In this document: one piece after another, positions 25,810-59,648 of the stretch
How positions within the stretch are numbered: the stretch's first letter is position 1
How the letters are laid out: each line of letters starts with the position of its first letter
Source of the DNA: an uncultured Ignavibacteriota bacterium
GTDB taxonomy: Bacteria; Bacteroidota; Ignavibacteria; UBA10030; UBA8401
Length of the DNA stretch: 64,000 nucleotides
Direction: 5' to 3'
Assembly (NCBI GenBank): GCA_903861125.1
Contig: CAIOTF010000049.1
Coordinates: forward strand, 1 to 64,000
Made by a program: the position numbers and the translations under genes
The notes under the pieces: generated by a model
What the model was told of the DNA's origin: nothing
Databases searched by the model: none
Seen by the model: the letters and a program-made list of their open reading frames with translations, nothing else

Positions 25810-27246
25810 ATGAAAAAAATAAATGATATTATAGTACCGGCGATAGTTCTCCTCACGTTGTGTTCGTTCAATGCGCTGTTCGCACAGGAAGAAATTATTG
25901 TGAGAGCGAAGAAAAAGATCTACCATGCCGACGGATCACGGTCGTATAGTGATTGGAAGGAATACCGGACTCAGTTAATAGAAAACCTGAAAGGATTCAT
26001 TCCGAAGAAGGAGCCTTCCTATTCCCGGTACGGAGGAAGACTTGATACTCGTATTGAATCGACCGGATTCTTTTATACAAAAAAAATTGAAAACCGATGG
26101 TGGATTATTGATCCGGACGGCTATTTATTTATCCACAAAGCCATTGTTACCTTGAAGCCGGGTACATCATCAAATCAAAACTCCATGATCGTACATAAAT
26201 TTGGTGATACGATGAAATGGCTCGATTCAACGTCCCGTCTTTTATCATCGACCGGATTCAATGGTACCGGAAACTGGTCTGATGCAGATCTGATAAAAGA
26301 GTCGCCGATCCCGCTTGTCTATACACGCGGATTCAATTTTATGTCGGCGTATGGAAAAAAAAGGGGAGGCACGTATCAACAGCCGGGGCACACAGGTTAT
26401 CCCAACGATCTGATTTTTGTTTTCGATCCTGAATTTGCCCAGTTTTGTGATACGGAAGCTGCCGATGCTCTTGCTTATAAAAACGAAAAAAATCTTCTCG
26501 GCTATTTTTCCGATAATGAAATGCCGTTTCCCGATAACGCGCTGGACCGGTACTTAGCGCTTGATTCGAAAGATCCGGGATACCAGGAAGCATCACGATG
26601 GCTTGCATCAAAAAGAGCAGAACAACTGTCGCAGAAGGAAATTTCGAACGAAGAGAGAAGTGCATTTCTGGCCTTTATGTCGGACAGGTATTTTTCCATT
26701 GTTTCCAAAGCGATAAAAAAATATGATCCGAACCATCTCTATTTGGGTTGCCGGTTTCACGGAGACATTATCAGGAAACAACCGGTTTTCGAGAGTGCCG
26801 GTAAATATATGGATGCTGTTTCGGTGAATTATTATGATGTGTGGACACCGGAGAACGACCGCCTTCAGAAATGGGCCGAATGGTCCGGGAAACCGATCCT
26901 TATCACCGAATGGTATACCAAAGGAGAGGATTCAGGGCTGAAAAATCAGACCGGTGCAGGATGGATAGTACCGACACAAAAGGATCGCGGATATTTTTAT
27001 CAGAATTTTACACTGGCACTGCTCGAATCAAAAGTTGTGGTTGGATGGCACTGGTTCAAATATCAGGACAATGATCCGAACGATAAGAAGGCCGATCCTT
27101 CGAACGCTGATGCGAATAAAGGGATCGTTGATAATAATTTTACGCCTTACTATCCCTTACTGCTGGAGATGAAAGAAATTAACACCAACGTGTACAACAT
27201 TATCGATTACTTTGACTCAAAAAAATCAAGCGAGCATTCCCAATGA
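25810..27246 (+). CDS. Secreted clan GH-A glycoside hydrolase, agarase-like (GH50-related)
   Basis: A 478-aa exported enzyme with a signal peptide (about 1-25, ending ALFAQ). The barrel begins RWWIIDPDGYLFIHKAI. The likely acid/base glutamate is in LLGYFSDNEMPFPD (about E237) and the nucleophile in KPILITEWYTKGEDSG (about E367), followed by VGWHWFKYQDNDP. This pattern is that of beta-agarases of GH50 and related uncharacterised families. The preferred linkage cannot be read from sequence: agarose, porphyran-like or another beta-linked glycan is possible. The stop overlaps the GH3 start by 4 bp (ATGA), so the two hydrolases are probably co-translated. Confidence 0.75.
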   Translation: MKKINDIIVPAIVLLTLCSFNALFAQEEIIVRAKKKIYHADGSRSYSDWKEYRTQLIENLKGFIPKKEPSYSRYGGRLDTRIESTGFFYTKKIENRWWIIDPDGYLFIHKAIVTLKPGTSSNQNSMIVHKFGDTMKWLDSTSRLLSSTGFNGTGNWSDADLIKESPIPLVYTRGFNFMSAYGKKRGGTYQQPGHTGYPNDLIFVFDPEFAQFCDTEAADALAYKNEKNLLGYFSDNEMPFPDNALDRYLALDSKDPGYQEASRWLASKRAEQLSQKEISNEERSAFLAFMSDRYFSIVSKAIKKYDPNHLYLGCRFHGDIIRKQPVFESAGKYMDAVSVNYYDVWTPENDRLQKWAEWSGKPILITEWYTKGEDSGLKNQTGAGWIVPTQKDRGYFYQNFTLALLESKVVVGWHWFKYQDNDPNDKKADPSNADANKGIVDNNFTPYYPLLLEMKEINTNVYNIIDYFDSKKSSEHSQ

Positions 27247-29621
27247 ACAAAACAATATTCTACATGCTGCTTCTTTTAGCAGCATTTTCTGTTGCCCAGA
27301 AAAATATTCCTGCGTCAAATCTGATCTATCATGAAGGGTGGAATGATCTGAACAAGAACGGGAAAATGGACCCGTATGAGAACCCCAAACTTTCTGTTGA
27401 TCTGCGGATCAAAAACCTGCTGAGCGTGATGACGCTGAATGAAAAAACAAATCAAATGGCAACGCTGTACGGTTACGGCAGGGTATTGAAAGATGAACTT
27501 CCGACCGCAACGTGGAAGAATGAAATATGGAAAGACGGCATCGCGAATATTGATGAACATCTGAATGGACTTGACAGGCCAAATACAAAAACTGAATATT
27601 CATGGCCGCCGTCAAAACATGCCAGAGCCATAAATGAAACTCAACGGTTCTTTATTGAGGAAACTCGCCTGGGCATTCCGGTTGATTTTTCAAACGAGGG
27701 GAACAGAGGATTGTGTCAACATGGTGCAACAGCGTTCCCTTCACAGCTTGGCGTTGGCGCAACATGGGATGTCGATCTTGTTGCTCGCATTGGTGCAATT
27801 ACCGGCAAGGAAGCAAAGATTCTAGGCTATAGCAATGTGTATTCCCCCATTCTGGATCTTGCGCGCGATCCTCGGTGGGGTAGAGTGGTGGAATGCTACG
27901 GAGAAGATCCTTTTCATATTTCGCGATTAGGGGTTGCGCAGGTTAAAGGAATTCAGGATCAGCATGTTGCGGCGACCGTGAAGCACTTTGCCGTTTATAG
28001 TGTTCCAAAAGGTGGACGGGACGGAGAAGCCCGCACCGATCCTCATGTTGCCCCGCGCGAAGTTGAGACCATGTATCTTGCCCCATTCAAAGCGGCATTT
28101 GTAGAAGCGAAGGCGCTCGGAACTATGAGTTCCTATAATGATTATGACGGCGTTCCCATTACCGGCAGCAGCAATTTTTTGATCAAAAAATTGAGGAAAG
28201 AATGGGGTTTTAACGGCTATGTGGTTTCGGACAGCAAAGCGGTTGAATATCTTTATACAAAACACCATGTTGCGAAAGATCAAAAAGATGCCGTTCGTCA
28301 GTCGGTGCAAGCCGGCTTGAATGTCCGGACTGAGTTCACTCCTCCGGATGATTTCATACTGCCGCTGCGCGAACTGGTGAAGGAAGGGACCATTCCTCAA
28401 AAGATGCTGGATGAACGTGTTGCCGATGTCTTGCGGGTAAAATTTCTCTTGGGACTATTTGACCAGCCGTATGTGCAGCATCCGGAACGTGCCGATACAA
28501 TTGTTGGTTCAGCTGAAAATCAAAAAGTATCGTTAGAAGCTTCGCGCAAATCGATCGTGTTGCTGAAGAATGCCGGTCAGATCTTGCCGTTGAAAAAAAA
28601 TATCCGTTCACTTCTGGTCACCGGACCGAATGCTGCCGCAACGAAATCATCTGTGAGCCGGTATGGACCGAACAGAATTGATGTTGTTTCGATTCTTGAT
28701 GGATTGAAACGTAAAGCAGGTGATTCAATCCAAATTAAATATACAAAAGGTTGTGAGCTTGTAGATGCGAACTGGCCTCAGAGCGAAATACTTCCTTCCC
28801 CGATGTCCGTTGAAGAAAAAGAGGAGATCGAAAAAGCCAGAGCATTGGCGAAGACGGTTGATGCGGCGATTGTTGTTCTCGGCGACGATGAGCGGATTGT
28901 GGGCGAATCAAAATCAAGAACAAGTCTTGATCTTCCCGGATATCAACTTGAGCTGGTAAAAGCAGTCTACGAAACCGGCGTGCCGACGATTGTAGTTTTA
29001 ATCAATGGCCGTCCGATGACCATCAACTGGATCGACAAATATGTTCCGGCTATTGTTGAAGCATGGTTTCCGGGAAAATGGGGAGGTGATGCTGTCGCCG
29101 ATGTTCTCTTCGGTGATTATAATCCGGGCGGAAAACTTCCCATCACATTCCCGAAGACTGTTGGTCAGGTGCCGTTGAATTTTCCCTATAAGCCGGGATC
29201 TGATATCGGTGATCCGACGTCGGTCTGTGATGTGTTATATCCTTTTGGTTTTGGGTTAAGCTATACGGAGTTTAAATATTCGAATCTTTCCATTACACCG
29301 TTAAGGCAATTGATGGACGGGAATGTTGAAGTTTCGTGTGATATCGAAAACACGGGGAACATGGACGGTGAAGAGATTGCACAATTGTATGTTCATGCTG
29401 AAACAAGCAGCGTAACGACATACGTAAAAAACCTGCGCGGATTTCAGCGGATATTCGTACCGAAAGGGAAGAAGGCGCACGCTCGTTTCGTTCTTTCTCC
29501 TGCTGATTTTTCATTGCTGGATCGTACCAATACCGTTGTTTTAGAACCCGGTTTCTATACGGTTATGATAGGAAGTTCTTCAGCGGACATACGGCTTACG
29601 GAAAAAATAACCCTAAAATAG
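27243..29621 (+). CDS. GH3 family glycoside hydrolase (beta-glycosidase)
   Basis: A 792-aa exported exo-acting beta-glycosidase with a signal peptide (about 1-18). It has the full GH3 layout: an N-terminal barrel with DLARDPRWGRVVECYGEDP, VAATVKHFAVY and the nucleophile aspartate in GYVVSDSKAVEYL (about residue 328), a C-terminal alpha/beta sandwich (VLLKNAGQILPLKK; AAIVVLGDD) and a final Fn3-like domain (PFGFGLSYTEFKYS onwards). It would release single sugars from oligosaccharides made by the neighbouring endo-acting enzyme. GH3 includes glucosidases, xylosidases and others, so specificity is open. It overlaps the upstream gene by 4 bp and is followed by the second composite regulatory element. 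Confidence 0.93.
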   Translation: MNKTIFYMLLLLAAFSVAQKNIPASNLIYHEGWNDLNKNGKMDPYENPKLSVDLRIKNLLSVMTLNEKTNQMATLYGYGRVLKDELPTATWKNEIWKDGIANIDEHLNGLDRPNTKTEYSWPPSKHARAINETQRFFIEETRLGIPVDFSNEGNRGLCQHGATAFPSQLGVGATWDVDLVARIGAITGKEAKILGYSNVYSPILDLARDPRWGRVVECYGEDPFHISRLGVAQVKGIQDQHVAATVKHFAVYSVPKGGRDGEARTDPHVAPREVETMYLAPFKAAFVEAKALGTMSSYNDYDGVPITGSSNFLIKKLRKEWGFNGYVVSDSKAVEYLYTKHHVAKDQKDAVRQSVQAGLNVRTEFTPPDDFILPLRELVKEGTIPQKMLDERVADVLRVKFLLGLFDQPYVQHPERADTIVGSAENQKVSLEASRKSIVLLKNAGQILPLKKNIRSLLVTGPNAAATKSSVSRYGPNRIDVVSILDGLKRKAGDSIQIKYTKGCELVDANWPQSEILPSPMSVEEKEEIEKARALAKTVDAAIVVLGDDERIVGESKSRTSLDLPGYQLELVKAVYETGVPTIVVLINGRPMTINWIDKYVPAIVEAWFPGKWGGDAVADVLFGDYNPGGKLPITFPKTVGQVPLNFPYKPGSDIGDPTSVCDVLYPFGFGLSYTEFKYSNLSITPLRQLMDGNVEVSCDIENTGNMDGEEIAQLYVHAETSSVTTYVKNLRGFQRIFVPKGKKAHARFVLSPADFSLLDRTNTVVLEPGFYTVMIGSSSADIRLTEKITLK

Positions 29622-29735: not shown

Positions 29736-32700
29736 ATGTATTCAGATATTTGGAAAGACAAAATATCTTCAAAGAACGCCGTATTTTTTCTTTTGTTGCT
29801 GTCGAATTTCCTTAGCGGATTTCTTCTTGCCGAAAATTCAGGTAAGATCTCCGGTACGGTAAAAGATAAAATGAACGGTGAACCGCTTGTCGGAGCAACA
29901 GTTGTTCTTCAAGGAACAAAACTTGGAGGCATCACCGATGCTGCCGGTGATTATTATATATTAAATGTTCCCACCGGAAGTTACAATGTAACCGCGTCGA
30001 TCGTGGGATACGGAAAAGTAACACAAACGGAGGTTCGGGTGCGGATCGATCAGACAACAACACTCAATTTCCGGCTGGCGGAAGAGGTTGTTGAGGCAGA
30101 GGGTGTTACCATCGTGGCAGAAAAACCGAAAGTTGAACTCGATCTGACCGCCAGCAAAGCAACTGTATCGCGTGAAGAGATCTCGAACGGTTGGGTGAAG
30201 GATATCAAAGATGTCATCACCGACCAATCATCAACAAATATCAATGGAGGCATTCGAGGAAGTTTTGGCGGCGATGTTTCATACCGGGTGGACGGCCTCG
30301 ATCTTCGTGATGTCGGTTCGAATACCAATTTTTCTTCGGTGAATCTATCCACCGTTCAGGCGATCGAAGTTTTAACGGGAGGGTGGAACGCCGAATACGG
30401 ACAGGCGAACGGCGCGATCGTTAATATTGTTTCACGAAAAGCGACCGACAAGATCCATGCCGTTGCGACATATAAGTCGCGGCCGTCCGGCAAATATCAT
30501 TGGGGAAGAAACATCTACGATAAGAATGATGTGTTCCATACCGTGATGGCAACACCGGAATTTTGGGATACATCAAAAACGTGGCGGACGCAGTGGATGG
30601 CTCCGGGTGAATCGCAAAAGGGGAATCTCGGAGACGGAAAATTTGCAAAAATGACTCCGCAGGAAAAGGCAGACTGGTGGAAAAATTTCATCAATGACAG
30701 CAAACGGTTTCCGCAATTCGATTATGCCGACAGAGCTGAAAGGGAACAGGAAGTAACTATCTATGGCCCAATTCTGCCTGAACTGAATTTTTTGGTTTCC
30801 GGCCGGTATAAAGAAGGAGTTGGTATATATCCCTCCGCCTTAAAGTACAATCCCGACATGACTTTACAGGGGTCGCTGGACTGGTCGCCGGTAAGCACAA
30901 CAATGGTCAGTGTCAACGGCATGTTCACAAAATTTGAAAACTCCGGCGCTCCGCGGACCAATTACCAGTCATCCGAAACGATTGTTGCCGACAACGCATC
31001 TCAAACGCTGCCGTTCATCGACGATCCGTATAATAAATATAAATTTTGGTTTTATGGACCGTCGAATAACGGCGGAAGTTTCGGCGACGGCAGCACGATT
31101 CGGGCACCCGAACGCGCTCAGTTGATGAATGTTCAAGCAAAGCTAACACAGGTTTTTACTCCCGAAACATTCCTAAACATGGCCTTCCAGCACAGCCAAA
31201 TGCAATACAATCTTGATTTTCGTGATATTGCGCAGACAGCACAATTTGCTGCGTTTGGATTGCCTTCGCCGACGGATTCCGTTCTTTCGTACGGCGTATG
31301 GCTGACATCATTTGGAAAACCGCCTACTTCGAATTTATTCGATTCACAACGGTGGGGATATGCCGGCGATATTTGGAGGAGTGAATCGAGAACGAAGAAT
31401 TACAGCGTCAAGGCAGATCTCACAAGCCAGATCACTAAAGCGCATCTGGTAAAATCAGGTTTTATTTTTTCTTTGCAGGAGATAAAGACATTCATTCATG
31501 AAGGAAATGTTCAGTCGGCCCCCTACGTGCAGGTGAATGACATTATTCCTATTGTCGATCATCCGTACGAAGGTGCCGGATACATTCAGGATAAAATTGA
31601 GGTCGGCGGGATGGTGCTGAATGCCGGTATCCGTTTCGACTTCTTCAATGCGAATAAAAATGTTGCAGCGGATTTCTACGATCCGCTGATGATCTCGGAA
31701 TACACACTTGGCAACTCGGGAAAGACCGGACTGATCGGATACCGTCCGAGCGGAAGCGGTGCTGCGTATGTTAAGACTCCCACGAGATATGCGTTCTCGC
31801 CCCGCATCGGAATTTCACATCCCATCACCGAAACAACAGTTCTGCATTTCATGTTTGGAATTTTCAATCAGCGTCCGTCATGGGTAAAGATGCTCTCCAA
31901 TCCTGTGGTTTGGACGGATAATAGAGCCAGCGGAAATCTTGATGACCTGATCAAAGCAAATAAACTTAATTCGGACCTTGGTCTTCCCGATACGTTGTTG
32001 GTGACGTACCGATATCTTGGCGCAAAAGTCGGTAATCCTGCTTTAACATGGGAAAAAATGACGCAGTATGAAGTTGGTATCGTCCAGAATATTGAGGACC
32101 TTGTGATGATCGAAGCAACAATGTATTACAAAGAAGGGAAAGATTTAACCTCGCTTGGAATAGATCAGGGACCGGCTACGGGTGAGATAAAACAATCGGG
32201 CGGCAATGTGGATGTCCGTTTATATGGAGACCCGTTCCAGGCGGACAACCGGGACCCCGGCAAGTATATTGGCAACTTCACGACCACAGTGAACGGAGCC
32301 TGGGCAGATGTTCGCGGAATTGAAATGAAAATGAAATCTCAGTTCCGTTGTATCAATGTTGAACTTGCTTATACACTTTCCTATTTGGCAACAGGCCGGT
32401 ATCACGACAGTAAATTATTCAAACTATCCCCCATCACAGGAAAACAACTGGCCGACAATGTTTTTGCCGGTGCAAATAATACTGATGGCGGCGGTATCGG
32501 CGTGAATGATATGTTGTGGAATCCGAGTAATTCCGGAATGATAAAGCTTACGATGAACAGCCCGGAAGATTTTGGTCCATCCGTTATGGAATTTTATCCG
32601 TTTGGAAGTTGGGTAGTAAGTTCTTCTACCCGATGGGTGCGCGGAAATGAATTTACATGGTATCCCACAGATTATCAGGATATCAAACTTCCGAATAACA

Positions 32701-32969
32701 GACGGTGGGAAGACCGTTGGAATACCAATATGAATATCAGTAAAAATATTCATCTCGCTGATAATATTTCATTCAAATTATTTATTCAGGTCACGAATCT
32801 TTTCAATCAAAAACATCTTGTTCAATTCAGCGAAGGTTCAACATCGCTGAATAATTATATGGCAAATAATATTCTTCCGTTCCAATCAACAACAAAGGAG
32901 CCGACGGAATGGAATTGGTACACTAATAATCCCCGGCAGATATATTTTGGTACGACGGTCGAATTTTAA
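29736..32969 (+). CDS. TonB-dependent receptor with carboxypeptidase-like N-terminal domain (SusC-like)
   Basis: A 1077-aa outer-membrane active transporter. After a signal sequence (about 1-33) comes a carboxypeptidase-regulatory-like beta sandwich (about 35-120, GKISGTVKDKMNGEPLVGATV ... GGITDAAGDYYILNVPTGSY), then a plug domain with DVSYRVDGLDLRDVGSNTNF and EVLTGGWNAEYGQANGAIVNIVS, and a large beta-barrel ending YFGTTVEF with the C-terminal aromatic typical of outer-membrane barrels. It imports glycan fragments. There is no SusD next to it. The gene after it encodes a large extracellular protein and the third a PorV-like barrel, all closely spaced on one strand. Expression probably starts at the element at 29652. 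Confidence 0.92.
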   Translation: MYSDIWKDKISSKNAVFFLLLLSNFLSGFLLAENSGKISGTVKDKMNGEPLVGATVVLQGTKLGGITDAAGDYYILNVPTGSYNVTASIVGYGKVTQTEVRVRIDQTTTLNFRLAEEVVEAEGVTIVAEKPKVELDLTASKATVSREEISNGWVKDIKDVITDQSSTNINGGIRGSFGGDVSYRVDGLDLRDVGSNTNFSSVNLSTVQAIEVLTGGWNAEYGQANGAIVNIVSRKATDKIHAVATYKSRPSGKYHWGRNIYDKNDVFHTVMATPEFWDTSKTWRTQWMAPGESQKGNLGDGKFAKMTPQEKADWWKNFINDSKRFPQFDYADRAEREQEVTIYGPILPELNFLVSGRYKEGVGIYPSALKYNPDMTLQGSLDWSPVSTTMVSVNGMFTKFENSGAPRTNYQSSETIVADNASQTLPFIDDPYNKYKFWFYGPSNNGGSFGDGSTIRAPERAQLMNVQAKLTQVFTPETFLNMAFQHSQMQYNLDFRDIAQTAQFAAFGLPSPTDSVLSYGVWLTSFGKPPTSNLFDSQRWGYAGDIWRSESRTKNYSVKADLTSQITKAHLVKSGFIFSLQEIKTFIHEGNVQSAPYVQVNDIIPIVDHPYEGAGYIQDKIEVGGMVLNAGIRFDFFNANKNVAADFYDPLMISEYTLGNSGKTGLIGYRPSGSGAAYVKTPTRYAFSPRIGISHPITETTVLHFMFGIFNQRPSWVKMLSNPVVWTDNRASGNLDDLIKANKLNSDLGLPDTLLVTYRYLGAKVGNPALTWEKMTQYEVGIVQNIEDLVMIEATMYYKEGKDLTSLGIDQGPATGEIKQSGGNVDVRLYGDPFQADNRDPGKYIGNFTTTVNGAWADVRGIEMKMKSQFRCINVELAYTLSYLATGRYHDSKLFKLSPITGKQLADNVFAGANNTDGGGIGVNDMLWNPSNSGMIKLTMNSPEDFGPSVMEFYPFGSWVVSSSTRWVRGNEFTWYPTDYQDIKLPNNRRWEDRWNTNMNISKNIHLADNISFKLFIQVTNLFNQKHLVQFSEGSTSLNNYMANNILPFQSTTKEPTEWNWYTNNPRQIYFGTTVEF

Positions 32970-32992
32970 TCTTTCTTAACAGAGGCTGTGAA

Positions 32993-35074
32993 GTGAATAT
33001 CAATTTGAAAGAGCATGTTTGTGCAACGATAATGAAGCTAATAGTAGCCGTGATGTTTACGTCTTCTTTACTGTTTTCACAAAGTGTCAATCCCGAAAGA
33101 CTGACGCGCAGCAAATATTGGCTCAAGACCGCACCGAATGGCGCCTTGGACAGAGAAACAACGATTGGAAATAATCAGTGGCTCTCTCTCTATCCCGGCG
33201 ATTACAATGCGCAGGGCGAATCGGCCGGCGGCTGGGATGCCAATGTGATCTATAATGGTGCGATGGTGGCCGGACAACCCGTTGGCTGGTATTACAGAAG
33301 TGTGCAATATAACAGCCCCAATGTGTATGCCATAACCCAAACAGCGGTCACACAAAACTATAATCTTGTAAACCCTCTGCGTGCGGAGGAATATCTTACA
33401 GGAGAAATTGGCTCCTATCAACTTGACGGAGCGGGAAAGAGGCATATGAAATATTCGCTCTCCGGTACCGTGCGGGTGTGGAGCCAGCCGAAGTACGATG
33501 ATTTTGTGATAATGGAATGCACGCTCACCAATACCGACGATACTACGTTCAACGATTTTTATTATGCACGGCTCGTTACTCCGAACGGTCCATACCGGCC
33601 TTCGTCCGTTTCTGTTGGATGGGACAAGGAATATGAATGGGATACGGTGATGGGAGATACTCTCGGATATATTTTTTATGACGGAACATCTCTTCCGCCG
33701 ACGACAACTGCTCCTGTCTATTCCATTCCTCCCGGCGATTCAACGGGCAATGCCGGTGATCCCGGGAATATCGGCGTGCAAGGGTCCAGAAATTACAAAC
33801 TCTATTCACCGTACGTGTATGCCTATACTTTTTTCATCGACTCGCTGCCGAAAAATAAATTCGGCGAGAAAAAAATATGGCGTAAGATTGTGTCGACGGA
33901 CAGCAGGGCGGAGGCGCTGGAACTTTTGCCTCCTCGCTATGACGACGGGCTGGGCCAATACAGCACGCTGGTGAACTTTATTACCACCAATGAACAACCG
34001 AAGAAGAGCTGGAAAAACGCCGCCGATTCGGGAATTGTCGGCGCGGGCAGCAAATGGGAAAGAAATCCGCGGTATCTCTACGCGATCGGACCGTTTGACA
34101 TAAAAAAGGGTGAATCGATCCATTGGTATGAGATCTTTGCCGCCGGACAAATGGACCGTAACATTTCCATGAAAGGCGGATATGAAGCCACACGGCGATT
34201 TAAATCCGAAGGGATCGCTAATCTTAAAGAAAATTTCCGTGCCGCAAAAAGTCTGATCCGGGGAAAATTTGCGCTGCCGTTTGGCACGGTTCCTCCGCCA
34301 ACACCTGCCGATGCACCGCGCGTCGGGAATACCAATGAACTCAAAGTTATTCCTTATGCGATCAATGTTAATAATCAAAGGGTGCAGGGAGTTCAGGTAT
34401 CATGGATGGGAGTTCACAAAGGTTATAAAGATCCTCAGACCAAACAAGCGGATTTTGCTGCATATAAAATTTATAAATCGACCAACTCTATCGAAGGTCC
34501 GTGGGAGATGATCGATTCGATCCATGTTTCGCGTTTCGATTCACTGCGAACTTCCATCGACAGTGCGTATATGATTATCGATTCGGTATCGAGTACGGGG
34601 GTGTTTCCGTTCATCAAGTATTTCATAAAATCAGAACCCAATGTGCCGTACCGGTATTGTGTAACAAGCATCGACAAGACGGGAAATGAAAGCGGAATGA
34701 CCGGATATTGTTTCTATCCGGTGTCAGCAGAACCGCCGCCGACCAATCAACAAAAACAGATTCTTGTCGTTCCGAATCCGTTCCGGCAGGTGAGCGGTTA
34801 TGCCGAAAGCGCGGAGTATAAACGAATTGCATTTGTAAATATACCGGCTCTCTGCACGATAAGAATCTATACGCTTGCATTGGACCTTGTAAAAACGCTG
34901 GAGCATACGAGCGGCGGTGGAATTGAAACATGGGGTTCGCAATCCGGAAAAGATTATATGCTCACCGATTTTGCTCAAAATGTGCAGCCCGGCATCTACA
35001 TCTTTCATGTTGAGTCGCACGTTCCCGGACACGAGGGGGAAACATCGGTTGGAAAAATAGCAATCATTAAATAG
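32993..35074 (+). CDS. Large extracellular protein of the TonB receptor/PorV trio, function unknown
   Basis: A 693-aa exported protein with a signal peptide (ending LLFSQ). A GTG start at 32993 with AGAGG at good distance is likely; an ATG at 33032 is the alternative. The body is beta-rich, includes a galactose-mutarotase-like stretch (KYDDFVIMECTLTNTDDTTFNDFYYARL) and an Fn3-like region (about 470-580). The C-terminus (LVVPNPFRQVSGYAESAEYKRIAFVNIP ... GIYIFHV ... GKIAIIK) is a divergent T9SS/FlgD-like sorting domain. Position between the TonB receptor and a PorV-like protein suggests a surface partner that captures substrate in place of SusD. That role is inferred from position only. Confidence 0.75.
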   Translation: MNINLKEHVCATIMKLIVAVMFTSSLLFSQSVNPERLTRSKYWLKTAPNGALDRETTIGNNQWLSLYPGDYNAQGESAGGWDANVIYNGAMVAGQPVGWYYRSVQYNSPNVYAITQTAVTQNYNLVNPLRAEEYLTGEIGSYQLDGAGKRHMKYSLSGTVRVWSQPKYDDFVIMECTLTNTDDTTFNDFYYARLVTPNGPYRPSSVSVGWDKEYEWDTVMGDTLGYIFYDGTSLPPTTTAPVYSIPPGDSTGNAGDPGNIGVQGSRNYKLYSPYVYAYTFFIDSLPKNKFGEKKIWRKIVSTDSRAEALELLPPRYDDGLGQYSTLVNFITTNEQPKKSWKNAADSGIVGAGSKWERNPRYLYAIGPFDIKKGESIHWYEIFAAGQMDRNISMKGGYEATRRFKSEGIANLKENFRAAKSLIRGKFALPFGTVPPPTPADAPRVGNTNELKVIPYAINVNNQRVQGVQVSWMGVHKGYKDPQTKQADFAAYKIYKSTNSIEGPWEMIDSIHVSRFDSLRTSIDSAYMIIDSVSSTGVFPFIKYFIKSEPNVPYRYCVTSIDKTGNESGMTGYCFYPVSAEPPPTNQQKQILVVPNPFRQVSGYAESAEYKRIAFVNIPALCTIRIYTLALDLVKTLEHTSGGGIETWGSQSGKDYMLTDFAQNVQPGIYIFHVESHVPGHEGETSVGKIAIIK

Positions 35075-35087
35075 CGGTCAATCAAAG

Positions 35088-36167
35088 ATGCTTATACGAA
35101 AATCGGATATGATAAATCGGACGAACAGAAATTTTATCTTCCTCATTGCCGTGATTCTATTCTCCGGTCAGGCTGCAGGCCAGGTTGGAAATAATACGGT
35201 CGGATGGGGAGTAGAACCCTTGGAGATCAGCAGAGTTGCCGCGGCCGGATGGCAGTTCCTTAAATTACCGACTGACGCACGCAGTGCGGCACTTGGAGGA
35301 ATTAAATCGGCAATAGGACACGGCAACGCAAACTCGGCGTTCAATAATCCAGCTTCGGCATCGGATATTACCGGCTCGGATATTCAGCTCTCGGCAATGA
35401 ATTGGGTTGCCGATATTCAATACAACAGCATCTCCTACGTGCAGAACGCAGGTGCCTGGGGTACTTTCGGCATTAATTGTATCTATCTGAATTATGGCGA
35501 CATGGTTCGCACAAAAGTTGCGCAGGGTTTTGATGCTTTAGGGAATGATATCGGCATTGTGCCGATTACGGAAGGCTTGCCTACATTCACGGCACACGAT
35601 CTGGCAGCGGGAATTTTATATTCGCGCCGGATCACCGAGTTCCTTCAAGTAGGAGGAAGTCTGAAATATACGGAACAGCAGATCGATGATGCGAAGATGG
35701 GAAGTTGGGCATTGGATATCGGAACGCTGTACTGGACAGGTATAGGAAGTTTGCGTATCTCGATGCTCGGAAAGAATTTTGGACCGGACGGTGAATTTTT
35801 GACGTACGAAGGAAGGATCGCTCAGGCGCCGGCTATGGTAAAAATGCCGATGATCTTTATTCTTGGCGCAGCATACGATATTGTTCAGCCGAACAACGAC
35901 AGCCGGCAACGATTGACACTTGCCGCCGAGTATGTAAAACCCAATGACGGTCCGGACAAAGCCAATGTCGGTCTTGAATATTTCATGTTTTCCAATATCT
36001 ATTTCCGCGGCGGATACCGGTTCAACTACGACGAAGAAAGCTATACGTTCGGGTTCGGTGTTGAATATTCGGTGGATGACGATATCAAAGTAAAAATGGA
36101 CTATGCATATGCCAACGTCGGCAGATTCAAATACGTGAATATGCTGACATTTGGTTTTGGATTTTAA
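35088..36167 (+). CDS. PorV/PorQ-family outer-membrane beta-barrel protein
   Basis: A 359-aa barrel protein of the PorV/PorQ (UPF0164) family, related to FadL-like barrels. The N-terminus after the signal peptide has the family mark FLKLPTDARSAALGGIKSAIGHGNANSAFNNPAS, and the C-terminus ends in alternating strands up to LTFGFGF. PorV proteins shuttle T9SS cargo at the outer membrane. A dedicated copy beside a TonB receptor and an extracellular T9SS-tailed protein may anchor or export that protein. The start at 35088 follows the upstream stop by 13 bp; an internal ATG at 35109 is also possible. Confidence 0.85.
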   Translation: MLIRKSDMINRTNRNFIFLIAVILFSGQAAGQVGNNTVGWGVEPLEISRVAAAGWQFLKLPTDARSAALGGIKSAIGHGNANSAFNNPASASDITGSDIQLSAMNWVADIQYNSISYVQNAGAWGTFGINCIYLNYGDMVRTKVAQGFDALGNDIGIVPITEGLPTFTAHDLAAGILYSRRITEFLQVGGSLKYTEQQIDDAKMGSWALDIGTLYWTGIGSLRISMLGKNFGPDGEFLTYEGRIAQAPAMVKMPMIFILGAAYDIVQPNNDSRQRLTLAAEYVKPNDGPDKANVGLEYFMFSNIYFRGGYRFNYDEESYTFGFGVEYSVDDDIKVKMDYAYANVGRFKYVNMLTFGFGF

Positions 36168-36214: not shown

Positions 36215-39200
36215 ATGAAGAGTTATTTTCGGAGCATTCTTTTTGTTCTCATTTTTTCTTTCTCCGCACCGTTACTGCATGGGCAGATAATGATACAGGA
36301 AGATTTCAATTATACCGCGGGTACCGATCTTGTCACCAACGGATGGTCGAAAGCAGCACTCGTTTGGAATCCGGTCACCGTCGTATCACCCGGCCTTACG
36401 TATCAGGGATATATCGGTGCAGGCGTAGGGAATGCGGCATTGTTAATGGACTATACCGAACGGTATTCAAAATCCATTACGGTCCCAACAGCCGGAGATC
36501 TTTATGCAGCATTTATGGTCAGGGTTGACACAGCAACTTCCTTGGGCGGTTACGTTGTCTGTTTTTATTCAAACAACGCGGCACGCGGCAGATTTTGGAT
36601 CAAAAATGACGGATCCGGGAATTTGAAATTCGGTTTAAGCGGAAAAAGCGCATCGGCTCCCGTTACGTATGAAGCAACAAATTATCTTTTCAAAACAACA
36701 TATTTGGTGGTGTTAAAATATTCGATCGTTACTGGAACAACGAACGATTTATATTCGTTGATCGTCAATCCATTGCCCGGAAAAGCGGAGCCGGTCGCAA
36801 ATATTTTGCCGTTTACCGATGCCGGAAGTGACCTTGGGGCAAATACTTCCGGTGCAAGTCTTTCCATTCAAGGACGGGATAGCCTGGGAACGGGTGCCGT
36901 GTTTGTTGTAGATGGAATTCGCGTTGGAACTGCCTGGACTTCGGTCGTTCCGCCACCGCCGTTCTATTATCAGGGAACCGGTGCCGTTGATGATCCCAAC
37001 AGTTGGGGTGATAACACCAATGGGTCAGGGAACCATCCGGTTGATTTTGGCGTGGACAACCAGTTATATCTATTAACGAATACAACATCAGTAACTCTTT
37101 CGTCACCCTGGGTGGTATCGGGTGCTGGTTCAAAAGTTATTGTTGCCGGCGGAACAACACTGACCGTTGCAACGGGCGGAGTTCTTTCTGCCACCGTAGA
37201 TGTCGCCTCCGGCGGAGTGCTCAATTTAACCAGCGCCGATTTCCTTCCGTTGTTCGGTACGAACGGCGGTACAGTAAACTTCGATAATTCTGCCGGTATC
37301 ACTCTTACCCAGGATGTGGTACTGCCAACCAGCTCCGGTTATTATGTAATGGCAAACGGAAACCTTAATGTCGGCACATATAAACTTTCTGTAAAAGGAA
37401 GACTGCGAACCAATAATTTTAAGATGCTCGGCAGCGGAACTTTTGCATTGGATTCCGCCGGTACTTTAGCGATCTCTTCACCTGATGGAATTGTTGCCAG
37501 CGGATCAACCGGTGATATACAAACAACCGGCAGATCGTTCTCCCGGTATGCAAATTATATCTACTCCGGTACAGTCAATCAAATAACGGGCAATGCAATT
37601 CCGGATACCGTTGCAAACATAACAGTAGCAATGAACAATCGTAATTTAACAACAACGCTGTCTAAACCGATGGTCGTGACCGGTAACCTTACAATGACAA
37701 GCGGAAAATATAAATTGGGAAATAATAATCTTATTTTTTCCAATCCGAGCGGTCACTCGGATACTTCGTACGTGATTACTGATGGCACCGGTGCATTGAT
37801 CCGCACAGTTGTGAATACCGGCAAAAAAACGATGCCGATCGGATCGGCTCTTGAATACCGCCCGGCAGTATTTATTTTTGAATCAACACCGACCGGTGTG
37901 CGCAATATCGCATTCCGTTACATTACCGGAGACACCGGGTCGGTCGGTTTTCCTGTGAATATTTTTTATCGTTACAAAGGCGGGTATTGGAATGTCGCGA
38001 GCGACAGTGTAATAAATCCAACCTACCGGTTAGATATTATTTCACCGAATGGATTTGCAGATCCGTCTACACGGAGGATCATTTATCGCGCAAGCAATGC
38101 GGTGAAATGGGATACCATAGCGAACGTACTCAATACATTTAACGCGGATACGGTTACGCAAGCGGGTATCGATAAGTTTGGTCAATTCGCGATTGGAATC
38201 GGAACTCCTCAATCGCCGACAACCGGAAAACGCTATGAGAGCGAAGTATTCACATCATTCCAAATTCAGTCTGCGATTCCGTATGGTACGGATGCCAAAC
38301 AAACGCTGGATCTTTATACCGGTACAGGAGACGGCCGCACTGATCGTCCTCTGGTAGTGTTTATTCCCGGCGGCGGATTTAAAGCGGTGAACGCGCCCGG
38401 CGGATTCAGTAATATTCTCGGCGGCGGGCTGGCAAAACGCGGATATGTTGTTGCGAACATCAATTACTATCGTACGGCATCCAGTCAACCCACGGATTCT
38501 TCCTCATTCGAAATAATGCTGAAAGCACAGCAGGATGTAAAAGCGGCGATACGGTTCCTAAGAAAGAATGGAACGTCGTACGGCATTGATACGTCGCAAA
38601 TTTTCCTCACCGGTAGTTCTGCCGGTTCCATAACCGCTCTCCATATCGCATACCTGGATTCTGCAGAAGTGCCGGGCAAATATGTCAACTGGAGCAATAT
38701 AGGAGGTACCTTTGACGGACCGGACAGAGGAACACCCGGAATTTCCACACGCGTTTCCGGAGTGATCTCGAACTGGGGTGCTATCGGTGATACCGCATGG
38801 ATGAAGAACAGCAAAGTACCGGTGTATTGCGTTCATGGTCTGGCAGATTCGACCGTGTTTTATGATTCTATTCCCGCTGACGGTCCATTCCGGTTTTCAA
38901 GCAAATATATTTATGCATCTGCACAGAGATTAGGCATCACCAACGGATTAAAAACATTCGTTAACACCGGTCACACGCTGGATAACGATGCGGCTAAACA
39001 GGATGATGCATATAAATCCGCAAGCGCCTGGCTTCTGACGCTTCTCAAACCCGGTACGCTTGGTGTTCAGAATGAACAAAAGAACATTCCGACATCGATC
39101 AGTCTGATGAATAATTTTCCGAATCCATTCAATCCTTCAACAACAATACAGTATCAGCTTCCGGCGATGATGCATGCAAGAATCAGTATCTATAATATCC

Positions 39201-39355
39201 TCGGACAAGAAGTGGCGACCTTGGTGAATGAAATAAAGGATGCAGGAGAATATGCGGTTACGTTCGATGCATCCAGACTTGCTTCAGGTTTGTATCTGTA
39301 TCAACTGAAAGCAGGTTCGTTCGTTCAAACAAAGAAAATGTTGCTTATAAAGTAA
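36215..39355 (+). CDS. Multidomain secreted esterase with T9SS sorting tail
   Basis: A 1046-aa extracellular protein preceded by AAGGAGG. Order: signal peptide (1-24), a jelly-roll region (about 28-240, EDFNYTAGTDLVTNGW), a G8/beta-solenoid-like region (about 250-560), then a complete alpha/beta-hydrolase (about 680-945) with VFIPGGGFKAVNAPGG, the serine motif TGSSAGSITALHIAYLD and histidine in TGHTLDNDA, and a T9SS sorting domain (from about 966, NNFPNPFNPSTTIQY). The hydrolase domain is paralogous to the free esterase at 24821. The oxyanion HGGGF is changed to PGGGF. It probably removes acyl groups from a polymer bound at the cell surface. A terminator follows. Confidence 0.85.
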   Translation: MKSYFRSILFVLIFSFSAPLLHGQIMIQEDFNYTAGTDLVTNGWSKAALVWNPVTVVSPGLTYQGYIGAGVGNAALLMDYTERYSKSITVPTAGDLYAAFMVRVDTATSLGGYVVCFYSNNAARGRFWIKNDGSGNLKFGLSGKSASAPVTYEATNYLFKTTYLVVLKYSIVTGTTNDLYSLIVNPLPGKAEPVANILPFTDAGSDLGANTSGASLSIQGRDSLGTGAVFVVDGIRVGTAWTSVVPPPPFYYQGTGAVDDPNSWGDNTNGSGNHPVDFGVDNQLYLLTNTTSVTLSSPWVVSGAGSKVIVAGGTTLTVATGGVLSATVDVASGGVLNLTSADFLPLFGTNGGTVNFDNSAGITLTQDVVLPTSSGYYVMANGNLNVGTYKLSVKGRLRTNNFKMLGSGTFALDSAGTLAISSPDGIVASGSTGDIQTTGRSFSRYANYIYSGTVNQITGNAIPDTVANITVAMNNRNLTTTLSKPMVVTGNLTMTSGKYKLGNNNLIFSNPSGHSDTSYVITDGTGALIRTVVNTGKKTMPIGSALEYRPAVFIFESTPTGVRNIAFRYITGDTGSVGFPVNIFYRYKGGYWNVASDSVINPTYRLDIISPNGFADPSTRRIIYRASNAVKWDTIANVLNTFNADTVTQAGIDKFGQFAIGIGTPQSPTTGKRYESEVFTSFQIQSAIPYGTDAKQTLDLYTGTGDGRTDRPLVVFIPGGGFKAVNAPGGFSNILGGGLAKRGYVVANINYYRTASSQPTDSSSFEIMLKAQQDVKAAIRFLRKNGTSYGIDTSQIFLTGSSAGSITALHIAYLDSAEVPGKYVNWSNIGGTFDGPDRGTPGISTRVSGVISNWGAIGDTAWMKNSKVPVYCVHGLADSTVFYDSIPADGPFRFSSKYIYASAQRLGITNGLKTFVNTGHTLDNDAAKQDDAYKSASAWLLTLLKPGTLGVQNEQKNIPTSISLMNNFPNPFNPSTTIQYQLPAMMHARISIYNILGQEVATLVNEIKDAGEYAVTFDASRLASGLYLYQLKAGSFVQTKKMLLIK

Positions 39356-55010: not shown

Positions 55011-57890
55011 ATGAAAACCACCATAAGATTCTTTCTGTTATTCTGCTTTTTCCTTCCTCTTACCAACACTTATTCCCAGTCAATGTTAACCGGTGTTATC
55101 ACCGATTCTTTATCTAAGGAATACCTGATCGGGGCAAATGTGTATTTGCCGGGGACGGCATTTGGAGGAGTTGCAGATATCAATGGAAAATTCAGGATCA
55201 TGAACATACCCGATGGTTCATACACCGTTCGGGTATCCTACATCGGTTATGCGACCAAGTTCATACCTGTTTCTTTCAGCAATAAGACCGATGTGAATCT
55301 GACCGTACTGCTGCAAAGCGAAGGTGTTGTCGGCGAAGAAGTGGTCATTACTGCCCAACGCAAAGGACAAGTTGCAGCGATCAACCAGCAGATCTCCTCG
55401 CAGGTTATGGTCAATGTTGTTTCTGCCGACAGGATCAAGGAACTGCCGGATGCGAATGCAGCGGAAGCCGTCGGCCGTTTGCCGGGTATTTCTCTTATCC
55501 GCAGCGCTGGTGAAGCAAGTAAAATTGTGATCCGGGGATTAGAACCAAAAATGAATGCTATCACTGTTAACGGGATAAAGATTCCATCAACTTCCACAAC
55601 GGACCGTTCTGTCGATCTCAGCATGGTCTCTTCTGAATCTCTGGAAGGGATAGAAGTGTTTAAAGCAACCACCCCCGATATGGATGCGGAAGCAGTCGGC
55701 GGCGTTGTGAACCTGAAAATTAAGAAGGCACCGGAAGAACAGAAAATGCAATTGAAATTGAGCCCGGGATATAATCAATTGGCAAATAGTTTTGGAGATT
55801 ATAAAGTAACGGGTGAATACAGCGACCGGTTTTTCGACAATGCAATCGGCATTGTTACAACCGGTAATTATGAAAGCGTGAACCGCGGTTCCGAAAGTTA
55901 CCGCGCATCGTTTTCCGTTGGAGGTCTGCGGGACACCGTCACGGGTATCGTTCCGATCAGCGGTGAGGATGTTACAGTTGCCAACTCAGTTGAAACACGA
56001 AAGCGGTTTGGAGCAAGCGTGACCCTTGATTATGCGTTCGAAGAAGGGGCCATTTGGCTGACAAATTTTTACAGTATGACAACCCGTGATCCTTTCAGCA
56101 TTACAAAACTGTATGATCCCAAAGCGGATAAATTAACATATACAGTGCGGGATTCCCGAACATCGCTGAACGGACTATCGAATGCGCTTAATGGAGAACT
56201 GAGACTTCTGGGAACAAACATGGATTGGTCACTTTCTTCCTATAAGATCGTCAACAATAATTCCTACGATTTTTCGATGACGTTGTGGCAGGTTTCGCCG
56301 TTTGATAACGCAAAATTATCTTCAAAGGATGTGTCAACATATATTGCCGCCTCAAAGGATAATGTTCCCGAGATGCTCTTACGGGATAACTATGACAGAC
56401 CGAATAAAATGGTCCAATCGGATTATGTCGGTCAATATAATCTGAAAGTTCCTTTCAATATTGGGGATTTGTTTGCAGCCTCGATAAAAGCAGGAGGAAA
56501 GTACTCCCAGTCAAACCGCGACAATAAATCGGACGGGCATGGACTTGGACAATATTATTTGGGGGGATCGTTTATTACGGTGGCACAGCAGTTTTATAAT
56601 CACCCGCTGATAAAAACCTCTAATGGAAATATTTCCGCTCTCAATTTTACGAGGCCGTTAAACAACAGCGCAAGCGTTGTGAACGACAAATATAAACTGT
56701 TCCCACTCTTTGACCGGGATGTGCAGAAGGATTGGGCTGAACAACAGCGCCCGTCATTCCAGTTCGATAGAAATTCGCTGTCGGAAAGCTACAATTTGAA
56801 GGAAGAAGTTTCTGCCGGCTATTTGATGACGGAATTAAAGCTTGGGAATGTTCTTACGGTAATTACCGGAGCGCGATATGAACATGATGATAACCGGTAC
56901 ACTTCGGTATGGACATCAGCCTACGAAGTGTACGGCAGATCAGGTATCATGAAGGATACAACGACAACGCGTGTCTATGAAAACTGGTTTCCCCATGTTC
57001 ATGCAAAAATTCTCATTGTCGATGGTTTCGATGTTCGTCTCTCCGCAAACAAAACATTATCACGTCCCGATTATTATTGGGTTTCACCATGGACTCGGCT
57101 CGATCCTTCCAATGCGACCATCAACCGGGGCAATCCGTTGTTGAGAGCGACAAGAGTAGGAAACTACAATGCATCGATGTATTTATACAGCAACGTTGCC
57201 GGGTTTTTCTCTTTGAGCGGCTATTACAAGGATCTGCGCGACATCTTCTACCGGAAACGGTCACAAGTATTTAAGGCGGAGGATATTATTGCCCTTGGAA
57301 TTCCCGGGAAAGAAGGCGGATATGCAATGACCTCATATGAAAATGCCGACCGCGCAGAAGTACGTGGGATCGAAGTGGAATGGCAGACGCAGTTAGCATT
57401 TTACTCATGGATGCCGGAATTGATGAAGGGATTTGTCTTCAATGTCAATTACTCGCGTATATGGTCGAAGACGTACTTCCCGTTTTACAAATTCAATGCG
57501 ACGCAAATCCCCGGTTCCCGGCCCCCCAAATATTCATACGACCTGACCGATTTCAAACGCGAAGGTCCGATGCCCGGTCAGTCCGACAAGATCATCAACC
57601 TGTCACTCGGCTATGATATCGGAAAATTATCAACAAGAGTTTCTTATTCCTATCAGGGACCCAGCATCAGTGCCGTTGGAGAAATTGCCGAAAGCGATAC
57701 ATGGAACAAGGAATTCCAACGCTGGGATTCAACGATAAAATATAAATTCTTTGATTGGATGAGCTTAAACATCAATCTCGTGAATATTACCAATCAGCCG
57801 GATCAGGCGTATTACGGTGCGGCCGATTTTCCGACCAGCGAATATTATTATGGCATGACGGGCAGTGCAAGTATCGATATTATTTTTTAG
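55011..57890 (+). CDS. TonB-dependent receptor, second copy, with carboxypeptidase-like N-terminal domain
   Basis: A 959-aa outer-membrane receptor. After the signal peptide (ending NTYSQ) comes a carboxypeptidase-regulatory-like domain (about 26-110, MLTGVITDSLSKEYLIGANV), then the plug (RIKELPDANAAEAVGRLPGISLIRSAGEASKIVIRGL; EAVGGVVNLKIKKAP) and a barrel with the usual C-terminal aromatic strand (TGSASIDIIF). The plug is closer to the Xanthomonas/Caulobacter type (TIGR01782-like) than to SusC, so it may import oligosaccharides without a SusD partner; none is encoded nearby. The beta-helix gene follows after 67 bp. Confidence 0.92.
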   Translation: MKTTIRFFLLFCFFLPLTNTYSQSMLTGVITDSLSKEYLIGANVYLPGTAFGGVADINGKFRIMNIPDGSYTVRVSYIGYATKFIPVSFSNKTDVNLTVLLQSEGVVGEEVVITAQRKGQVAAINQQISSQVMVNVVSADRIKELPDANAAEAVGRLPGISLIRSAGEASKIVIRGLEPKMNAITVNGIKIPSTSTTDRSVDLSMVSSESLEGIEVFKATTPDMDAEAVGGVVNLKIKKAPEEQKMQLKLSPGYNQLANSFGDYKVTGEYSDRFFDNAIGIVTTGNYESVNRGSESYRASFSVGGLRDTVTGIVPISGEDVTVANSVETRKRFGASVTLDYAFEEGAIWLTNFYSMTTRDPFSITKLYDPKADKLTYTVRDSRTSLNGLSNALNGELRLLGTNMDWSLSSYKIVNNNSYDFSMTLWQVSPFDNAKLSSKDVSTYIAASKDNVPEMLLRDNYDRPNKMVQSDYVGQYNLKVPFNIGDLFAASIKAGGKYSQSNRDNKSDGHGLGQYYLGGSFITVAQQFYNHPLIKTSNGNISALNFTRPLNNSASVVNDKYKLFPLFDRDVQKDWAEQQRPSFQFDRNSLSESYNLKEEVSAGYLMTELKLGNVLTVITGARYEHDDNRYTSVWTSAYEVYGRSGIMKDTTTTRVYENWFPHVHAKILIVDGFDVRLSANKTLSRPDYYWVSPWTRLDPSNATINRGNPLLRATRVGNYNASMYLYSNVAGFFSLSGYYKDLRDIFYRKRSQVFKAEDIIALGIPGKEGGYAMTSYENADRAEVRGIEVEWQTQLAFYSWMPELMKGFVFNVNYSRIWSKTYFPFYKFNATQIPGSRPPKYSYDLTDFKREGPMPGQSDKIINLSLGYDIGKLSTRVSYSYQGPSISAVGEIAESDTWNKEFQRWDSTIKYKFFDWMSLNINLVNITNQPDQAYYGAADFPTSEYYYGMTGSASIDIIF

Positions 57891-57957
57891 AGAGAACATC
57901 GTTTCGCAGCAGTACTATTATTAACAGTTTTATCAATCAACAAAAGGAGCAGTTCGC

Positions 57958-59535
57958 ATGAAAAAAACTATTTACGCAATAGTGTTAATAGCGGTCCTGG
58001 TCGGTTTGGCACAAAGTCAAAGGCTGATAACAATCACCCCGGGCAAGGATGCAATCTATACAGCAATCAAGGCTGATTCGGTAGCACGAACAGCCGCTCT
58101 TCCAACACAGACAATATATATCCTGAAACGCGGAGGGGTTTATCCTTGCGTGTCACTGATCGAAAACACAAACTATTTCTTGTATATCAAAGCGGAAAGC
58201 GGCACCGGATATAAACCACTATTGATACCGGAACCAACGACCGGTACAACCTATACGTATAATATCAATTTCCGATCGAGCGGCAAACTTGAGGGGCTAA
58301 CCCTTGACGCATCACGACCGACCGGCGGCGTGAACAACCGTTATATCAATATTTATAATGGTGCCAGCGTCTGGGTGAAAGACTGCGAAGTGATGCACGA
58401 TCGCGGAAGTGCGTTTGCTCTGCAAAGCGATAGCTGCAGTATCTACATTGATGATTGCTTTATCCACAGCATTGGTCATCCAAAGACTCTGGGCGGAAAC
58501 GGGAGAGTTGTTGACATCAGACCGACAAATATTCAGGACTCCATCATTGTGCGCAATACCACGTTCTTTAATCTTACTGACCGTATTCTCAGAAATATCG
58601 GCACCACGGTCAACTATATTAAGTTCGATCATTGCACCGGTTTGACGACAGAAGGATATCACGGCGGATTGCAGGCAGGGAAAACCAAAGAACTTGTGAT
58701 CACTAATAATATTTTCATGAACACCATCGCGCTTGGTTCATTTAAGAAACGGACTTCTGTTGCCGCAACAACGCATGAACAGACGCAGCCCGAAAAGAAC
58801 CTGATGTATGTTCTGACGCTCGATACAGTTTTTACAGGATCGAAGATCACAGTGAGAAACAACAATATCTATTGGGAACAGAAATACAAAGATCTTTTTC
58901 TTAAATGGAAAGACTCCACCGATGTTCCCGGTATTATTACCTCGACCATTAATAAGCAGCTGACCGATTCGACAAAAGCATATTTTGTGGAACCGCTTAC
59001 GTTCAAAGCTCCTCCTGCATCGATCGATAAATTTATCGATTCAGCGTTGATGGCTCCGAACGCGTTGGTGCTGCCCGAAAATTGGTCGTTCCTGTATCAG
59101 GATTCCATTGCCAATGGATTCGACAATCCAGTCAATGCATCGTACGGCACTACGGCTCTATCATATACCAAAGCAGACGGCAGTTTCCCGGTGGGCGATT
59201 TGAACTGGTATCCGGCACGCAAAGCCGCATGGTTGTTAACAAGCGTAAAAGAGCAGGAAGCAGGAATTCCGGAAGCATTCTCGTTGTCACAGAATTATCC
59301 GAATCCGTTCAACCCCAGCACGAGCATTTCGTTCAGCATGACCAGAACGGGATTTGTCTCATTGACGGTGTATGATATTCTTGGCCGTGAAGTTGCTTCA
59401 ATATTGAATGAGTTAAAAGAAGCCGGAACATATCAGGTATCATGGAACGCAGCAGGAATGGGCAGCGGTGTATATTTCTATAAGATGCAATCCGGATCGT
59501 TTGCCGAAATGAAAAAAATGATCCTTCTTAAATAG
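57958..59535 (+). CDS. Secreted parallel beta-helix protein (PL6/DUF5123-like) with T9SS tail
   Basis: A 525-aa exported protein with AAAGGAG before the start and a signal peptide (about 1-20). The body is a right-handed beta-helix like that of chondroitinase B/alginate lyase-type (PL6) and DUF4957/DUF5123 proteins: GKLEGLTLDAS, VWVKDCEVMHD, CSIYIDDCFIHSI, SIIVRNTTFFNLTDR, YIKFDHCTGLTTEGYHGG. A T9SS sorting domain starts near 440 ([14 protein letters not shown]). A lyase acting on a uronate polymer would match the neighbouring sulfatase and the hexuronate genes, but no active-site set can be assigned with confidence. Confidence 0.82.
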   Translation: MKKTIYAIVLIAVLVGLAQSQRLITITPGKDAIYTAIKADSVARTAALPTQTIYILKRGGVYPCVSLIENTNYFLYIKAESGTGYKPLLIPEPTTGTTYTYNINFRSSGKLEGLTLDASRPTGGVNNRYINIYNGASVWVKDCEVMHDRGSAFALQSDSCSIYIDDCFIHSIGHPKTLGGNGRVVDIRPTNIQDSIIVRNTTFFNLTDRILRNIGTTVNYIKFDHCTGLTTEGYHGGLQAGKTKELVITNNIFMNTIALGSFKKRTSVAATTHEQTQPEKNLMYVLTLDTVFTGSKITVRNNNIYWEQKYKDLFLKWKDSTDVPGIITSTINKQLTDSTKAYFVEPLTFKAPPASIDKFIDSALMAPNALVLPENWSFLYQDSIANGFDNPVNASYGTTALSYTKADGSFPVGDLNWYPARKAAWLLTSVKEQEAGIPEAFSLSQNYPNPFNPSTSISFSMTRTGFVSLTVYDILGREVASILNELKEAGTYQVSWNAAGMGSGVYFYKMQSGSFAEMKKMILLK

Positions 59536-59565
59536 AAGTACTGTTTGGCAAAAAGTCATGAACAC

Positions 59566-59601
59566 AATTCGACCCCGCTTGATCGGGGTCGAATTTTTTT
59601 C
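59566..59601 (+). terminator. Strong Rho-independent terminator after the beta-helix gene
   Basis: AATTCGACCCCG (59566-59577) pairs perfectly with CGGGGTCGAATT (59584-59595), a 12-bp stem with a 6-nt loop, directly followed by a T-run. It lies between the beta-helix and sulfatase genes, so the sulfatase needs readthrough or its own promoter. Confidence 0.9.
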
Positions 59602-59648
59602 TCCCGAACATACAGAACAAAATTGTCTTTTGAAGAAAGAGGAACAGC

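Follow-up and report, generated by a model that had tools for sequence, protein, structure and literature searches.

Repeated units of a TonB-dependent receptor, a T9SS-type client and a PorV/PorQ-family barrel: a candidate SusD-free importer in Ignavibacteria

Introduction

SusCD, in which a SusC/RagA receptor is paired with a SusD lid, is the known importer built from a receptor and a partner protein. Among proteins of the type IX secretion system (T9SS), PorQ anchors PorZ and PorV anchors PorU (PMC5562754), and PorZ and PorU retain their tails (PMC11285876). A review has put forward the idea that a cognate PorV-like barrel, by handling such tails, may shield them from sortase (PMC10202324). 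PorP/SprF proteins anchor type B cargo, and the genes of barrel and cargo lie side by side (PMC9143113, PMC12618676, PMC12635249). Here we describe a three-gene unit, or trio, from a 64,000-nucleotide stretch of DNA (the window; contig CAIOTF010000049.1, positions 1 to 64,000, assembly GCA_903861125.1) of an uncultured Ignavibacteriota bacterium, in which a TonB-dependent receptor is followed by a large exported protein, the client, and by a barrel of the PorV/PorQ family. We consider that the trio is probably an outer-membrane nutrient importer whose surface partner is a T9SS cargo.

Results

The first-pass annotation of the window had reported a receptor, a 693-aa exported protein and a PorV/PorQ-type barrel in that order, and all three were found at the positions listed in Table 1, with matching profiles. 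The three genes share one strand and are separated by gaps of 23 bases (receptor-client) and 13 bases (client-barrel). The receptor was identified as a TonB receptor by its Plug and CarboxypepD_reg domains, which are conserved with its 15 paralogs; no STN transducer domain was present among its Pfam matches, and its score against the SusC model TIGR04056 (50.4 bits; cut-off, 368) placed it outside the SusC family. The client had no match in Pfam or NCBIfam. The barrel scored below the cut-offs of the PorQ model NF033711 (104.9 bits; cut-off, 220) and the PorV equivalog NF033710 (30.3 bits; cut-off, 250) and did not match the PorP/SprF model TIGR03519 (cut-off, 90.55), under which its nearest paralog reached 19.4 bits. 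Comparison of the barrel family profile with solved structures gave PorV (6h3i) as the best match (7.1e-40), with weak matches to the FadL-type proteins TbuX (1.3e-04) and TodX.

Reading of the DNA around the barrel genes revealed 15 complete trios in the genome, each on a single strand with the receptor gene first, the client second and the barrel last (one in the window and the others at L075, L076 [two trios], L077, L079, L080, L081, L082, L083, L084, L086, L087, L088, and L089). The window client has paralogs in the same genome. At L078 the client is set apart from its receptor-barrel pair, and at L092 a client is accompanied by a receptor and lacks a barrel. An apparent gap in a trio at L107 turned out to be an artefact of overlapping open reading frames (ORFs) in GC-rich DNA. 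There are 20 PorV/PorQ-family members over the cut-off in the genome, and the core PorV is a separate gene beside PorU (L074; 269.7 bits). A tree of the trio barrels and core PorV had long branches and resolved no separate clade of trio barrels. A search of the genome with the window receptor gave many relatives, of which the 17 closest all belonged to client/barrel loci (1.6e-25 or better, versus 2.7e-20 for the best receptor outside such loci).

Several other arrangements were observed. At L090:5162-8548, two tandem PorV-like barrels occur without a receptor, next to a protein of 520 aa whose sorting domain is intermediate. A FadL/TodX-type barrel follows one trio, with a sulfatase before it, perhaps a four-protein variant (L081:9727-11268). 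A client subgroup carries a short extension past the sorting domain (L088:5081-8842 and L092:737-4444), and one member of the client family bears a CHRD domain.

We sampled 60 client matches, strong and weak, from 12 related genomes and annotated their neighbours with profiles of the three families. The unit was present at 52 of the 60 loci: 48 in the order receptor-client-barrel, two with an extra ORF between receptor and client, and two in the order receptor-barrel-client (L248 and L253). A strongly conserved 1030-aa client was also searched in named genomes, which yielded 554 relatives. The best 79 were examined, and these constitute one orthologous set, since a single ortholog group served as the query; they came from Ignavibacteria, Melioribacteraceae, Calditrichota, KSB1, Kryptonium (Kryptonia), Delongbacteria, and Neomarinimicrobiota (Marinimicrobia). 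Among these best 79 of 554, the receptor lay directly upstream of all 77 clients with a visible upstream gene, and the barrel lay directly downstream of 69, most of the others being contig ends or split or tandem clients. A tandem client pair behind a single receptor was seen at L168:4887-11334. For clients of the window type, 19 of 20 loci have the barrel as the next gene downstream; the nearest relatives of the window client were 71% identical to it in a single genome from its family and about 33% identical in the next. The count of co-occurrence and order that the first-pass annotation had proposed thus did not refute its reading, as the three families do travel together, and the 15 copies in the genome and the sampled relatives rule out a chance or one-off neighbourhood.

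C-terminal domains (CTDs) in the genome fall into two classes: ordinary type A tails, borne by secreted enzymes, and a second class borne by the clients. In a leave-one-out test, profiles separated 17 clients from 22 type A proteins of this genome with zero errors, the window client scoring 92.4 bits with the client hidden Markov model (HMM) versus 5.0 bits with the type A HMM. Measured from the PNP motif, the domain spans 89-114 residues in clients versus 78-90 in type A proteins. The window client matched neither the type A models TIGR04183/PF18962 nor the type B models PF13585/TIGR04131; among 16 paralogs, TIGR04183 matched seven weakly and CHU_C two weakly. The profile tests, together with the leave-one-out separation, rule out the client as ordinary type A or type B cargo. 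By NCBIfam, the best matches of the client sorting domain were PorZ and PorU; the best PDB sequence matches of the clients were PorU (6za2) and PorZ (5m11), and the fold of the window model matched PorZ (Z 10.7 over 89 residues at 2.8 A) and PorU (Z 9.5). The C terminus, described earlier as divergent and sorting-type, is therefore T9SS-like and of a class of its own, and the suggested likeness of the client to T9SS cargo agrees with its resemblance to PorZ and PorU in profiles, PDB sequences and fold. With an Ig-like CTD of the PorZ/PorU fold and SprA encoded in the same genome, the client is a probable T9SS cargo in the wide sense.

Of 61 genomes from the phylum, 39 contained members detected with the client profile. 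They were present in 39 of the 47 SprA-positive genomes and in none of the 14 SprA-negative genomes; the 61 genomes are related to one another and do not count as independent events. Neither SusD families (PF07980, PF14322, and PF12771) nor any SusC over the TIGR04056 cut-off was detected in the genome studied here, and the client itself matched no SusD family, in agreement with the earlier remark that no SusD follows the receptor. A SusD identity of the client is ruled out by the profiles, and its models are beta-rich. Among SprA-positive genomes, the client number, which saturates because up to 13 candidates were scored per genome, fell as the SusD number rose (rho -0.46, p 0.001, per genome); the relation was marginal at the level of family means (rho -0.40, p 0.056).

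The AlphaFold model of the window client (m42ddbfd0ff97) was of low confidence (mean pLDDT 58). An ortholog client modelled from an alignment of 78 sequences reached a mean pLDDT of 88. Since the window model is of low confidence, conclusions on fold are drawn from the ortholog model; the window model agrees with it. Against the beta-supersandwich superfamily (GH15/GH94/GH116), the ortholog model reached Z values as high as 20.2 (264 residues), and residues 40-430 of the window client gave values as high as 10.8 against the supersandwich domains of GH94 and GH116; by Foldseek alone, such matches ranked lower for the window model. In the ortholog model the supersandwich is followed by a linker helix, an FN3-like domain, further beta domains and the sorting domain. 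The catalytic (alpha/alpha)6 barrel is absent from this model, which contains almost only strands past residue 492. Since the supersandwich and linker helix are present and the catalytic helical barrel is missing, the modelled client resembles an enzyme reduced to its carbohydrate-handling half, without the catalytic half. Likeness of fold does not by itself demonstrate a function. A plain enzyme, the outcome that the first-pass annotation had set against its proposal, is thus not what the models depict.

The neighbours of the window trio include a GH3 glycosidase, two BD-FAE esterases and a beta-helix-like protein, and downstream lie glucuronate isomerase (UxaC), sugar kinases (PfkB), 6-phosphogluconate dehydrogenase and a major facilitator superfamily transporter. 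Because of the esterases, GH3, UxaC and the other sugar-metabolism genes, the region 24821-53128 looks, from its gene content, like a xylan/uronate utilisation locus. A GFO/IDH oxidoreductase is also encoded there, and a 478-aa exported protein without a Pfam match, possibly an unclassified glycosidase, lies between an esterase and the GH3 gene (25810-27246). Elsewhere in the window (55011-61187), genes for a type A T9SS protein and a sulfatase come after a second TonB receptor, a locus with no client and no barrel. Carbohydrate-related genes adjoin 8 of the 15 trios, a raw count without a background rate. Genes beside the other trios encode GH9 with CBM9, GH94 with a glucoamylase-like protein, a sulfatase, GHL10 pairs, a trehalase-like glycosidase, a LacI regulator, a PfkB kinase, and peptidases M14 and M16.

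Table 1. Positions of the trio and of flanking genes in the window
Feature	Coordinates	Strand	Evidence
TonB-dependent receptor, 1077 aa	29736..32969	+	Pfam CarboxypepD_reg 3.6e-20 (N-terminal), Plug 2.2e-06
Client, 693-aa exported protein	32993..35074	+	Supersandwich-like N-terminal domain ~40-430, FN3-like ~433-580, T9SS sorting domain ~583-693
Client C-terminal sorting domain, PorZ/PorU-like class	34739..35071	+	Client HMM vs type A HMM; fold matches
PorV/PorQ-family outer-membrane barrel, 359 aa, candidate dedicated carrier/anchor	35088..36167	+	NF033709 146.6 bits (cut-off 90)
GH3 glycosidase, upstream context	27243..29621	+	Pfam Glyco_hydro_3 1.8e-57
BD-FAE-type esterase with ordinary type A T9SS sorting domain	36215..39355	+	BD-FAE 2.1e-17, Por_Secre_tail 2.6e-10

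Discussion

If the trio is an importer with a T9SS cargo as its surface partner, the client would be exported by Sec and moved through the outer membrane by SprA, a step suggested by its sorting domain and by its strict co-occurrence with SprA. The client's own PorV/PorQ-like barrel would accept it from the translocon and hold it uncut on the cell surface, as the precedents of PorZ-PorQ and SprB-SprF suggest. By analogy with these pairs, the barrel may be a dedicated carrier and anchor of the client, and the presence of one barrel gene beside each client would fit the tail-shielding proposal (PMC10202324). The client-barrel pair would then stand beside the receptor, where the supersandwich domain might capture glycan or peptide fragments freed by secreted enzymes and the client might pass them to the receptor, doing the job that SusD does for SusC; paralogous trios may serve different substrates. 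A role for the client as a substrate-catching partner beside the receptor, in the place of SusD, is plausible.

A number of observations weigh against this interpretation. Eight of the 60 sampled clients lay apart from a receptor-barrel pair. The three trio proteins diverged together in distance-matrix tests, but with equalised columns neither the sorting domain-barrel pair nor the client body-receptor pair was singled out; raw partial correlations had favoured the latter, and this preference was largely lost within genomes at equal column numbers, so that domain-specific co-evolution was rejected. Some genomes carry SusD and the client family together, and a SusCDE operon is known from M. roseus (PMC3534657). 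Strict exclusion between SusD and the trio is ruled out by the genomes with both, and replacement of SusD is for this reason a tendency and not a rule. In P. gingivalis the CTD hairpin was found to serve no function (PMC11285876), and an insertion occupies the hairpin position in some type A domains of this genome; likeness to uncut CTDs in length and hairpin is not proof.

One alternative, which we regard as unlikely but take seriously, is that client and barrel form a surface pair of the PorZ/PorQ or SprB/SprF kind, an adhesin or glycan binder that makes no complex with the receptor, the latter being merely co-regulated and importing the same nutrient. Barrel-client pairs without any receptor are known (PMC5562754, PMC9143113), and no co-evolution of client body and receptor was detected beyond linkage. 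However, the receptor is no less constant a member of the unit than the barrel, and it still comes first in the two reordered loci. It appears improbable that the client is instead a secreted enzyme or processing factor freed from the cell, with the barrel as a copy of a general shuttle. Supersandwich domains do occur in GH15, GH94 and GH116 enzymes, but the high-confidence ortholog model lacks the (alpha/alpha)6 catalytic barrel, the known members of this sorting domain class are kept and not cut, and there is one barrel per client rather than one general PorV. Finally, a FadL-type channel for a hydrophobic or small nutrient, with a client that only binds the nutrient and no involvement of the T9SS, is very improbable: PorV also belongs to the FadL family, and TbuX/TodX are weak matches of the barrel profile, but PorV is the best solved relative (7.1e-40 versus 1.3e-04 for TbuX) and the client co-occurs strictly with SprA.

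We found no earlier description of the trio in the open-access literature searched, although subscription papers or preprints may hold one. If the importer interpretation is correct, the trio would represent a second route to a high-capacity glycan importer in the Fibrobacteres-Chlorobi-Bacteroidetes (FCB) superphylum and would account for the many PorV/PorQ-family genes in Ignavibacteria and relatives. It would also add nutrient import to the roles of the T9SS in secretion and gliding, and provide many natural cargo-carrier pairs for the question of how cargo tails escape sortase.

The trio resembles SusCD in being an operon of a CarboxypepD_reg-bearing TonB receptor and one large surface partner, present in many copies per genome and neighboured by glycosidases. 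It differs in that its receptor is far under the SusC cut-off, its partner, rich in beta structure and bearing a T9SS sorting domain, is not a SusD, and a third gene for a PorV-family barrel is added. With PorZ-PorQ and PorU-PorV of the T9SS attachment complex, known pairs in which the protein retains its tail and is anchored (PMC5562754), the trio shares the nearest sorting domain by sequence and fold and the PorV/PorQ family of its barrel. Unlike these pairs, client-barrel pairs are many per genome, each with its own TonB receptor; the client has neither beta-propellers nor a protease domain, and the barrel is under the PorQ and PorV equivalog cut-offs.

As in SprB-SprF, where the SprF-type barrel is carrier and anchor of type B cargo (PMC9143113, PMC12618676, PMC12635249), the cargo gene adjoins its own barrel. 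However, the trio barrel is of the PorV/PorQ and not the PorP/SprF family, the sorting domain does not belong to type B, there is no gliding adhesin, and a TonB receptor belongs to the unit. GH94, GH15 and GH116 enzymes share the supersandwich fold of the client N-terminal domain, whereas the client lacks their catalytic helical barrel and continues with FN3-like and sorting domains. The trio joins the idea of a dedicated carrier barrel with that of a SusCD-type importer, using different families.

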